From positions 1 through 64,000 of the forward strand of contig DYJE01000020.1 of NCBI GenBank assembly GCA_020723285.1: a stretch of 64,000 bases of DNA. Reading direction: 5' to 3'. The notes under the pieces are model-generated. The model was given only the letters and a program-made list of their open reading frames with translations. It was not told the origin of the DNA and did no database searches. This document shows, one piece after another, positions 21,879 to 25,471 of the stretch (position 1 is the first letter of the stretch; each line of letters starts with the position of its first letter). Origin of the DNA: Desulforapulum autotrophicum. Its GTDB lineage: Bacteria; Desulfobacterota; Desulfobacteria; Desulfobacterales; Desulfolunaceae. The position numbers and the translations under genes are program-made.

Positions 21879-22067
21879 GGCGTGCCTCCTCATCGTGATT
21901 GATCACAGAACCAGTATGCAGGGGACTGGGTTAGATTTCTGTGAGGAAATCGTGTGTTTTTTGTTTGACGGTGAAAGAATGCCGGGAAAGACATGCTTTT
22001 GCATGTGCCACACTGGACCTTGACGAAATTTTTATTGACAGGGTTACCGGTTGCGCATTAAAAGAGC

Positions 22068-22115
22068 TTCATTGCATGATTCCGGTTTCATGAAGAAACC
22101 GGGAAAGACAATGAA
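22068..22115 (+). ncRNA. Candidate aptamer-like 5' leader hairpin before fmdE
   Basis: The leader folds into an outer stem UUCAUUG/CAAUGAA (22068-22074 with 22109-22115), an internal loop CAUGAUU/GAAAGA, and an inner stem CCGGUUUC/GAAACCGG (22082-22089 with 22095-22102) capped by AUGAA. Stem, purine-rich internal loop, stem, and then a terminator 13 bases downstream is the layout of a small riboswitch with its expression platform. I cannot match it to a known class. Confidence 0.45.
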
Positions 22116-22128
22116 ACATAAAAACGCG

Positions 22129-22174
22129 GCCACGAAGGTCGGAACATGAGATGTCCGGCTTTCGTGGCTTTTTT
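22129..22174 (+). terminator. Intrinsic terminator in the fmdE leader (possible attenuator)
   Basis: GCCACGAA (22129-22136) pairs with TTCGTGGC (22161-22168), extended inward through TCGGA/TCCGG-type pairs to an ACAT-GAG-ATGT end, followed by six T. It lies 65 bases upstream of the fmdE start and downstream of the putative promoter, so it must be read through for expression. Confidence 0.75.
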
Positions 22175-22238
22175 GTTTCTGTGCGGAGCCGTGACGCATT
22201 TTTATGGACCGCATGAACGGAGATGAAAGGAGTTTTTT

Positions 22239-23372
22239 ATGTTTTATAAGACGAGCAAGGTGCTGAGTTTAAAGATGATGTTATGGACACTGGTTGTTCT
22301 GGTCTCGGCAGGGTTTGGTCTGGCAGGGGTTGCAGAATCCTGCGTGAAAACAAGGGAGTATGGTTACTGGACAGAGGTGGGGGCTCTTGCGGCAGGACAG
22401 GCCCTTTCCATGATCCGCAAAAAAGGTGTGGCCGTGAAAGCCGACGACTGCATCGCCCTTTCCAGTGCGGGGTATGCCGAGATCAAGGACCGTGACACGG
22501 CAGGTGCCCTGGATGGCCTGGCCCGGATTCTTGGAGTGAAACGGGGGAACCACAGCCTGATCGAGGTTCACAGTGCACCGGACACGGCGTTGTGGTTTGC
22601 CGTGTACCATCTGAAATCCGGGTATGGCACCTATCTTCAGATCAATCCGGACGCCGTGGGTTCGGGCGGCACGTTGTACAGACTGGACAAAAAGAACCTG
22701 TTTTCGTCAAAGGCTGTGGAAAAAATCAACGCGGAGCACCTGTTCGCCAACGCGTCGGAGTTCGCGGGGAAATTCAACGCCAAAATCTTCGGCGGCAATG
22801 AGTTCCGCATCGTCACCATCGCCAATGCCGTGGCTGCGGGTGCGCCGTCATGCGCTGTACGGGCCTTTGAATTCCACGACCACTACTGCCCGGGCGTGAC
22901 GTCGGGCATCCTCATGGCGCTTTACATCAAACACTATTTCCCCAAGGAACCGGCCGGAAGTTACTTTGTCCAGAGCGTCCAGCCCTGGTGCAAAGAAGAC
23001 GCGCTGATGGTGATCCTCAACACCACACCGGGTAAAAGCGGCTACCATGTCAGCTATCCCACGGCCGATGACATGGCATCCTGGTCCGACACGGTCAAAA
23101 ACGCCAGCACCATCGTCTACCGGAAAGATCCTGTGTCCGGTCTCTGGGACGGCGTCGTTCTCGGCTACCAGGGTGGAACCACGGGCTGCCCGTCTTACGG
23201 CCACAGCGTGATGGACAAGCTCTGCGCCGATCTCTGGTATCTCAAACACCTCGATCACCCCGAAGAATTTGTCACGGTTCTCCATGAATTCGAACTGCCC
23301 AAGGGCGTCACACCCCAGAGTTACGGCCGTCCCGGTGTGGACCCCATGGTCAGGCTGGGTCTTGTGAAATGA
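22239..23372 (+). CDS. Secreted FmdE-family protein
   Basis: A 377-residue protein with a signal peptide (about 1-33, ending GLAGVAES). The C-terminal half carries the FmdE domain (named after subunit E of formylmethanofuran dehydrogenase): FHDHYCPGVTSG with His213, His215 and Cys217, then QPWCKEDALMVILNTTPGK. These residues bind metal in the family. The N-terminal half resembles a second, degenerate copy (YGYWTEVGALAAGQAL). Export suggests periplasmic metal or metal-cofactor handling. A TonB-dependent receptor follows after 92 bases. AAGGAG precedes ATG 22239. The exact ligand is unknown. Confidence 0.82.
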   Translation: MFYKTSKVLSLKMMLWTLVVLVSAGFGLAGVAESCVKTREYGYWTEVGALAAGQALSMIRKKGVAVKADDCIALSSAGYAEIKDRDTAGALDGLARILGVKRGNHSLIEVHSAPDTALWFAVYHLKSGYGTYLQINPDAVGSGGTLYRLDKKNLFSSKAVEKINAEHLFANASEFAGKFNAKIFGGNEFRIVTIANAVAAGAPSCAVRAFEFHDHYCPGVTSGILMALYIKHYFPKEPAGSYFVQSVQPWCKEDALMVILNTTPGKSGYHVSYPTADDMASWSDTVKNASTIVYRKDPVSGLWDGVVLGYQGGTTGCPSYGHSVMDKLCADLWYLKHLDHPEEFVTVLHEFELPKGVTPQSYGRPGVDPMVRLGLVK

Positions 23373-23464: not shown

Positions 23465-25471
23465 ATGCCTTTAAAATATAAAGATACAATCAGAGATCTG
23501 TGTGTGTTGACCGTATTTGGATGGATGGCCGTCCTTTCACCCGGATGGGCCAGCGAACCGAGCATGGTTCTGAAACTGGGTGAGATCACAGTAACGGCAA
23601 AAAAGGACAGCGCGGAGGAATCCCCGCCCTCGGCCACAATCATCAAAGGGGAAGACCTGAAAGATCAGCATTTTGACAAAACCCTCTACGTCCTTCAGAA
23701 AGTTCCGGGGGTGGTGATTCAGGATTACGGGCAGGGGGCCGTGGCCAGCCAGTTTTCCATGCGGGGTTTGCGCCTGGGTCACAACACGGGCGTGGCCATT
23801 TTCGTCGACGGCGTGCCCATCAACGAGTCCACGTCCCACGGTGACGGATACGGGGATTTCAACACCATCATTCCGGAGGATATCGAGTCCGTCGAGGTCA
23901 TCAAGGGTCCGTCGTCGGCTTTGTACGGACAGTTCGCCCGGGCCGGGGTTGTGAACATCATCACCAGACGAAGCGGGAATTTCAATCTGTACAAGCTGGG
24001 TGCCGGGGATTTCAACCGTCAGCGGTTTGCGGGTTCAGCAGGAAAAACCGAGGGTGATCTGTCATCGGTGTTCGGGGTTGAAATGTCGAGAAGCGAAGGG
24101 GCCGCCGATCATTCCGGATGGCTTCTGTGCAATGCCACAGGCAAATTCACCTATGATATCAGCGACAAACTCAAGACAGGTCTTACCCTTAACATGCACG
24201 CCACGGAATGGGACCACCCCGAATACCTGACCCGGCAACAGTGGGATAACGGGGAATACTGGAGCGCGAAACCCCTGGGCGGCGGCGAACGGTACCGTTA
24301 CGGCGGAAGCGCCAATCTATCTCTGGCCGCTACGGAAACATCGACGGTAAACGCCATGATTTACGGTTACACCATGAATCTCACCCGGTACAGGGACTTG
24401 GATACCACCGTGCGTGAAGAATACCATGACCGGGATATGTACGGCGGCAGCGCGAGCCTTGTTTTAAAAACCGATATGGCGGGAATGAAAAACACCCTGA
24501 CCACCGGCGTGGACGGGCAGATGGAACTGACCCACACCATCAATGCCCTGAATCCCAGCCGGATTCCTTCGGCCCGTGAAAACATCACCGTGAACGGGGA
24601 ATCGGTGATCACCACACTTTCGGCCTACGCTCAGAATCGTCTTCATGTGTCCCCCCGCTGGCTGCTTTCCCTGGGAGGACGCATCGACTCCATCTCAGGC
24701 GATCTGGAAAACAAGCTGACCGGATTGGATTCGGACATGGACACCTTCACGATTTTCAGTCCCAAAGCCGCACTTGATTTTACGCCGGTCCCCGGCAGCA
24801 CCGTTTTCACCACCTACGGAGAGGGATTCCGACTTCCCGGAGGATTCGACAAGTTCACCTACCCCGGTCTCAAAGAGGAAACGTACCGGCAGTACGAGCT
24901 GGGTTACACATTTTCGGGAATCGAAAACCTTCAAACCACGCTGACAGGGTTTGTTCTTGAGGTGGACGACGAAATCGTTACGCTGGACGCCGCAGGGACC
25001 AAGGAAAATCAGGGCAGTACACGGCGCACCGGAATGGAGCTTGCCGCAGAGTACACCATTTTCAGGCATCTTGGAATGTACGGCCATGTGTCATACGTCA
25101 AGGGGAAATACCTCGACTACGTGAAAAACGGCGTGGATTACTCGGATACTGACATCTCCCTTGTGCCCGAATGGCTGTTCAGTTTCGGCGCGGAGTGGAA
25201 GCCACCCAAAGGCCTCTTCGCAGGTTTCGACTACCGTTATTCCGGCGAGAGTTTTCTTGAAGATTACCCCGGTGATTACACCGGCAACCGCAAGTACACC
25301 ATCGACTACTGGGTTGCCGATGCCCGGATCGGATATCGGATAGACCCATATTCGCTGACCCTTGACATCAAAAACATGTTCGATGAACGCTATCCAAGCA
25401 CCGAATCGGCCAACTCCCTGCGGACGGCCAGTCCAAGGGCTTTTTTTGTGACCCTTGCGGTTGATTATTGA
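23465..25471 (+). CDS. TonB-dependent outer membrane receptor
   Basis: 668 residues. A signal peptide (about 1-29) is followed by a TonB box-like GEITVTAKK, the plug domain with FDKTLYVLQKVPGV, MRGL, VFVDGVPI-type strand and VEVIKGPSSALYG, and then a 22-strand barrel. The protein ends in the expected aromatic C-terminus (VTLAVDY). It would import a scarce ligand, powered by a TonB complex not encoded here. Pairing with the periplasmic FmdE protein hints at a metal chelate. Confidence 0.9.
   Translation: MPLKYKDTIRDLCVLTVFGWMAVLSPGWASEPSMVLKLGEITVTAKKDSAEESPPSATIIKGEDLKDQHFDKTLYVLQKVPGVVIQDYGQGAVASQFSMRGLRLGHNTGVAIFVDGVPINESTSHGDGYGDFNTIIPEDIESVEVIKGPSSALYGQFARAGVVNIITRRSGNFNLYKLGAGDFNRQRFAGSAGKTEGDLSSVFGVEMSRSEGAADHSGWLLCNATGKFTYDISDKLKTGLTLNMHATEWDHPEYLTRQQWDNGEYWSAKPLGGGERYRYGGSANLSLAATETSTVNAMIYGYTMNLTRYRDLDTTVREEYHDRDMYGGSASLVLKTDMAGMKNTLTTGVDGQMELTHTINALNPSRIPSARENITVNGESVITTLSAYAQNRLHVSPRWLLSLGGRIDSISGDLENKLTGLDSDMDTFTIFSPKAALDFTPVPGSTVFTTYGEGFRLPGGFDKFTYPGLKEETYRQYELGYTFSGIENLQTTLTGFVLEVDDEIVTLDAAGTKENQGSTRRTGMELAAEYTIFRHLGMYGHVSYVKGKYLDYVKNGVDYSDTDISLVPEWLFSFGAEWKPPKGLFAGFDYRYSGESFLEDYPGDYTGNRKYTIDYWVADARIGYRIDPYSLTLDIKNMFDERYPSTESANSLRTASPRAFFVTLAVDY

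Follow-up and report, generated by a model that had tools for sequence, protein, structure and literature searches.

The leader of an fmdE-type gene in Desulforapulum autotrophicum is, with a probability of roughly 0.62, one member of a widespread family of terminator/antiterminator switches which, judged by sequence comparison, would control a nickel (possibly nickel and cobalt) regulon in anaerobes without NikR. The DNA analysed, here called the window, comprises 64,000 nt (GCA_020723285.1, contig DYJE01000020.1, positions 1-64,000, forward strand). Comparison with related leaders reveals a conserved element, a hairpin (P2) and a terminator that exclude each other, covarying pairs in both, a nickel-gene context downstream, and a near-absence of NikR from the genomes concerned. 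How nickel is controlled in anaerobes without NikR found no answer in the literature searched, seen in part, though CO dehydrogenase, hydrogenase and lactate racemase need the metal; the element would be a testable answer, and it names a regulon that includes FmdE, DUF3842, DUF4198 and many TonB receptors. Nickel is thus predicted as the cargo or cofactor of misnamed proteins, such as the 'molybdenum formylmethanofuran dehydrogenase operon protein'. If true, this would be a second dual-hairpin antitermination system beside that of the ANTAR proteins.

Sequence and fold place the parts of the leader, from 5' to 3', in the order TTGACA, hairpin (P1), strong terminator, RBS and fmdE, whose ATG lies at 22239 (Table 1). 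The promoter-like box, the hairpin and the intrinsic terminator seen in the initial annotation are all found, and the fold of 22060-22180 reaches -52 kcal/mol (z = -6.8), equalled by none of 200 shuffles. The left arm of the terminator is common to the terminator and P2. A promoter scan of the window did not call the TTGACA/TTAAAA pair, nor did a simple terminator scan list the terminator; by eye, the leader also holds a 19-codon frame. Pfam bears out the two genes named downstream, an FmdE-type protein with an apparent signal peptide (judged by eye) and a TonB-dependent receptor, which probably form one operon.

Table 1. Features of the fmdE leader and of the genes that follow it, in positions of the window.
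Feature	Positions	Strand	Basis and remarks
-35 box TTGACA, leader promoter	22035-22040	+	sequence
-10-like TTAAAA	22058-22063	+	weak, 3/6 vs TATAAT; placed via 17-nt spacer
Hairpin P1	22068-22115	+	fold; reads CCGGUUUC-AUGAA-GAAACCGG
P1 outer stem	22068-22074/22109-22115	+	
P1 inner stem	22082-22089/22095-22102	+	
P1 apical loop AUGAA	22090-22094	+	
Hairpin P2 (putative antiterminator)	22127-22141	+	5 bp in nascent-chain folds to 22145 and 22150; covariation in relatives
P2 core: GCC, loop ACGAA, GGU	22129-22131, 22132-22136, 22137-22139	+	
Intrinsic terminator hairpin	22129-22168	+	fold; covariance model R1 at 22120-22176
Terminator left arm GCCACGAAGG	22129-22138	+	
Terminator right arm CTTTCGTGGC	22159-22168	+	
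Terminator U run	22169-22174	+	sequence
RBS AGGAG	22228-22232	+	sequence
fmdE-type gene, 377 aa	22239-23372	+	ORF; PF02663, 46.5 bits
TonB-dependent receptor	23465-25471	+	ORF; PF00593 and PF07715

Two parts are conserved among the leaders, the GAA-ended loop of P1, [N]NGAA, and GCCANGAAGGY, the left arm of the terminator; the outer stem and the internal loop of P1 are not. The purine-rich internal loop CAUGAUU/GAAAGA noted in the initial annotation is absent from the other leaders compared and is no aptamer core. Close relatives of fmdE occur in 22 of 194 and in 19 of 389 genomes of the order (different thresholds, overlapping sets), and the leaders of many fmdE relatives keep the terminator, with the left arm fixed as GCCANGAAGG and the right arm keeping in step with it. 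The pattern GCCANGAAGG-N8..38-TCNTGGC-N-TTTT, which sets no condition on the complementarity of N and N', matches 52 of 116 genomes of relatives (reversed-pattern control, 0), and a near-identical pattern matches at least 118 stretches in a species-wide collection; these counts are lower bounds, the patterns being strict. N' is the complement of N in 136 of 154 unique matches, and the matched elements are 39-59 nt long. Four matches lie in the window's genome, before fmdE, two TonB-receptor operons and DUF3842-CooT; hosts of the element belong to the Desulfobacterota, Nitrospirota and Clostridia. The ACC-type pattern also hits tandem CACGAAG/CATGAAG repeats at L275, L276 and L280, which look like a different, repeat-type palindrome.

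A covariance model (R1) built from 62 elements, with the window's own left out, scores the site at 22120-22176 at 44.7 bits (E = 1.4e-8 in 64 kb); the next-best hit in the window is the opposite strand of the same site (E 0.0034), and otherwise E = 0.23. By this model the element lies at most about 700 nt upstream, on the same strand, in 12 of the 22 close fmdE loci, none of them part of the model (L028, L030, L032, L033, L036, L051, L058-L062 and L064, the last weak at E 0.07). The initial annotation had counted on covarying pairs and on a hairpin conserved along with its gene: the element is indeed conserved and its pairs covary, but the other 10 of the 22 close fmdE loci have no upstream element by R1. 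At L036:679-901 the model finds three tandem copies upstream of one fmdE-type gene, which suggests a steeper or multi-step switch.

TTGACA stands upstream of 70 of 122 non-redundant elements (8.9 expected from shuffles), mostly 79-118 nt before the conserved arm; the leaders are thus short. Fourteen loci judged off-target by eye (L080, L109, L112, L116, L117, L127, L130, L137, L162, L177, L178, L179, L190, L210) were left out of the analyses of TTGACA enrichment and spacing, of strict P1 hairpins and of neighbouring genes; near-duplicates were mostly removed from the TTGACA, strict-P1 and neighbour analyses, and these, like the element lengths, cover only matches with complementary N and N'.

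The family is apparently undescribed so far. The initial annotation could name no class for the leader, and in keeping with this the window has no Rfam match at gathering score; at the same threshold the element is free of Rfam overlaps in 18 related loci as well. The Mo/W cofactor riboswitch, considered as a candidate, was dropped for want of an Rfam match, and the NiCo riboswitch RF02683 has no match in 21900-22300 at E up to 10. No description of the element was found in the openly licensed literature searched, and the words nickel and cobalt are absent from a survey of 104 motifs (PMC2864571).

The conserved strand takes part in two folds. P1 hairpins of at least 5 bp with a 4-5-nt loop ending in GAA occur in 47 of 127 leaders (the runner-up trinucleotide reaches 8, shuffles 2.1), and in 90 of 175 under looser limits (at least 4 bp), with loops such as AGAA, ATGAA, AAGAA, TGAA and similar ones. 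P2, GCC-ANGAA-GGY, has a loop of the same type: C-ANGAA-G inside a terminator is found 172 times, against 0-13 with the loop permuted, and the stem is intact in 158 of these 172 cases. Pair 1-11 of P2 covaries, position 11 being C113/T47/A1 with G at position 1 and T31/G4/C4 with A (Fisher 8e-11, kinship ignored; 200 elements, after 13 of 213 had been set aside as opposite-strand copies), and the terminator fold does not require position 11 to be paired; most A1 elements were contributed by a scan in which 44 of 389 genomes were positive. Pair 0-12 is Watson-Crick in 95 of 175 elements, against 62.3 expected (p 2e-4, kinship ignored). Counter to this pairing, A1 faces G11 or C11 in 8 of 39 elements; in the GCC/GAC elements (3 of 200) P2 is broken. 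The permuted-loop counts, together with the covariation at 1-11 and 0-12, argue that P2 is real and not a mere half of the terminator.

The bases of the left arm have a second covarying partner in the right arm of the terminator (kinship ignored), in which C or T stands opposite an invariant G, as G-C and as G-U in 25-26 of 62 elements each, at two positions. P2 and the terminator are mutually exclusive, and both sets of pairs covary; the strand of the left arm thus has two covarying partners, which fits what a switch needs. In folds of the nascent chain, P1 and P2 are present as far as nt 22150; the terminator takes over at about 22165-22171. Enforcing P2 costs about 17 kcal/mol relative to the full terminator, so that P2 needs help to win. 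The leader thus has the build of an attenuator: between promoter and gene lie a G+C hairpin and a U run, and an alternative fold excludes the hairpin. A conserved strand further upstream that could act as antiterminator by pairing with the left arm was sought as well: no such k-mer is enriched, the enriched words being mainly of the TTGACA type and of the loop type.

In the mechanism proposed, RNA polymerase would make P1, with its [N]NGAA loop, and then P2. An unheld P2 would lose GCCANGAAGGY to the right arm, which is made next, and the terminator would form and stop transcription; a factor gripping the GAA-ended loops of P1 and P2 would allow P2 to persist and block the terminator, and fmdE and the TonB receptor would be transcribed. 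With little conserved besides the two loops, the element looks like the target of a loop-gripping protein. The protein nature of the factor, nickel as the signal and the direction of the switch are what we infer, ligand and direction being drawn from the gene content; since the downstream genes serve uptake, the factor would be expected to act under nickel scarcity. The initial annotation saw in this layout a riboswitch: a cis-regulatory leader with an attenuator is indeed present, but with so little conserved outside the loops, recognition by a protein is a better fit than a riboswitch of the classic kind.

The genes behind the element may form a regulon of nickel uptake and use, with cobalt, given CbiM, as a possible co-signal. 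The first downstream genes (117 of 120 extracted proteins scanned with Pfam) encode TonB Plug domains (16), DUF4198 (10; presumably nikK), ExbB/TolQ (8), FmdE (7), SBP_bac_5 (6), CbiM (6), DUF3842 (4), FecCD (3), a periplasmic binding protein (3) and TonB (3). Against NCBIfam, two of these first genes match LarE over the cut-off, one of three CbiM matches is over it, and NikA- and NikB-like matches remain under it; the neighbours include CbiQ, ExbD, DUF4198, FmdE and two nicotianamine synthases. LarE, according to the part of the source consulted, makes the nickel-pincer cofactor, and CooT is described as binding nickel with nanomolar affinity (PMC6006190). The metal theme proposed for the ligand is thereby retained, but molybdenum and tungsten give way to nickel (perhaps cobalt), to which the gene context points.

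The leading candidate for the factor is DUF3842, a lead that could equally be a target of the switch. Of the 55 element-bearing genomes, 52 encode it, among them almost every genome without CooT or ANTAR (the three misses are G100 and G412, draft or partial genomes, and G397, whose element is doubtful), compared with 7 of 25 genomes in a biased comparison set (16 picked for their lack of CooT, 3 because they carry NikR, and 6 more; the survey covered 80 of 97 planned genomes, the 17 dropped ones all belonging to the comparison set). DUF3842 lies inside 13 of the 118 element stretches listed, and in 7 distinct loci an element stands 28-278 nt upstream of it, a placement that may be that of an autoregulated regulator; for the majority of DUF3842 genes, the 900 nt upstream contain no element. 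The best 25 families of two Pfam tallies of neighbours (121 and 70 of 301 proteins) contain no other recurrent regulator. The predicted structure (pLDDT 86) has a Rossmann-like fold, with a UbiX-like decarboxylase as its best Foldseek match (E 6.8e-4) and lactate dehydrogenase at Z 9.5 by VIA (rmsd 4.2, 127 aligned); there is no RNA-binding relative among the structure matches, no PDB sequence relative below E 0.36, no conserved Cys or His, and no mention of DUF3842 by name in the openly licensed literature searched. Tentatively, DUF3842 could be a nickel-responsive RNA-binding antiterminator that, alone or with CooT, replaces NikR and, when nickel is absent, binds P1 and P2 by their GAA loops, so that RNA polymerase can proceed into nickel-uptake operons; this is compatible with co-occurrence, physical linkage and the autoregulation-like placement, and is unproven. 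If true, it would add an RNA-binding regulator fold outside the ANTAR, BglG, TRAP, PyrR and HutP families, and a nickel regulon spanning at least three phyla.

CooT was rejected as a universal sensor because 13 of the 37 element-bearing genomes from other sources lack it; among the relatives it is present in 98 of 116 genomes, and the element pattern occurs in 50 of these 98 and in 2 of the 18 without CooT. ANTAR (PF03861) is found in 25 of 42 element-bearing genomes and is absent from 17, isolates included. With no tested protein family universal in element genomes (DUF3842 is nearly so), the two GAA-loop hairpins might bind nickel, cobalt or a nickel cofactor directly, and an aptamer embedded in a terminator has a precedent in the HMP-PP (thiS) class, which likewise carries conserved sequence inside its terminator hairpin and differs from the fmdE-leader element, whose ligand binding is putative, in sequence and genes (so far as the text consulted goes; PMC6478431). 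Such a riboswitch nevertheless seems unlikely: almost nothing is conserved beyond two 4-5-nt loops and P2, and a metal that stabilised P2 would switch on uptake genes when metal is plentiful, the reverse of what would be expected. Known aptamers, to our knowledge, conserve far more than such loops. The NiCo (czcD) riboswitch RF02683, akin in its RNA-level control of Ni/Co genes, is a four-way junction that controls efflux, whereas the element consists of two simple hairpins before uptake genes, matched by no Rfam family. The architecture is closest to that of the dual-hexaloop leaders of ANTAR proteins (eut, nasF, amiE), in which, in the portions consulted, two tandem mini-hairpins with stems of at least 3 bp are described, the second of which shares sequence with the 5' base of the terminator and, when bound, prevents termination (PMC3369931, PMC8934654); tandem hairpins and overlap are found here as well, and the window's genome has one ANTAR match. 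But the hexaloops there have A at position 1 and G at position 4, against [N]NGAA loops here (in P2 ANGAA, 5 nt, with G at position 3), the linker between the hairpins is 5-12 nt in eut leaders, against a median of 42 nt here (5th-95th percentile 21-82), and 20 additional nt of linker abolished the action of EutV (PMC8934654). ANTAR leaders moreover control nitrogen genes, whereas the element precedes nickel genes, and with PF03861 missing from so many of its hosts, binding of both hairpins by a divergent ANTAR protein is improbable.

About as improbable is an ordinary constitutive terminator, shared by descent and regulating nothing: the element does fold as a strong intrinsic terminator, but it stands between promoter and gene rather than after genes, its left arm is invariant with a right arm drifting within the rules of pairing, and the genes downstream are thematically narrow. 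An inverted repeat before nickel genes could also be read as the DNA operator of a dimeric nickel repressor such as NikR, a reading that is hardly credible given matched lengths that vary between 39 and 59 nt, the C/T drift opposite an invariant G, which RNA pairing allows, the U run after the repeat, and the covariation of P2, which would have no meaning in DNA. The window has no match to the NikR operator, GTGTTAC-N13/14-GTAACAC, and its genome no NikR_C; NikR occurs in 1 of 55 element-bearing genomes (54 distinct ones, since G003 and G420 share their CooT places and are apparently one genome), and NikR_C in 3 of the 116 relatives, none of which matches the element pattern. In delta-proteobacteria that have it, NikR, a DNA-binding repressor acting on that operator, controls nikMQO and nikK, as stated in the part of the source consulted (PMC545781), and these targets, a nikMQO-type CbiM-family transporter and nikK, overlap with those of the element. 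The near-absence of NikR and the overlap in targets are most simply read as an RNA switch doing the job of NikR, in line with the terminator/antiterminator reading preferred here.

Several loci show further particulars. TonB receptors behind the element match NCBIfam models of the 'FCYXU', 'CU' and 'PUIUD' motif type, in whose names U presumably stands for selenocysteine, and the element locus L126 also carries tRNA-Sec; selenocysteine-bearing nickel receptors, if real, would be notable. In the window's genome (L213:17479-18000), an apparent lipoprotein with tetrapyrrole-methylase-like sequence, recognised by eye, is encoded 3' of both an element and a TonB receptor; for a relative of a cobalamin-pathway methylase, export would be unusual. 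One copy of the element has a cobalamin riboswitch (L110:6441-6628; RF00174, 107 bits) some 5 kb away, so that the two controls share a neighbourhood. In gut Clostridia (L140, L185) the element precedes a gene for an ECF-transporter-like membrane protein, which is divergent from DUF3842 and may have nickel as its cargo.
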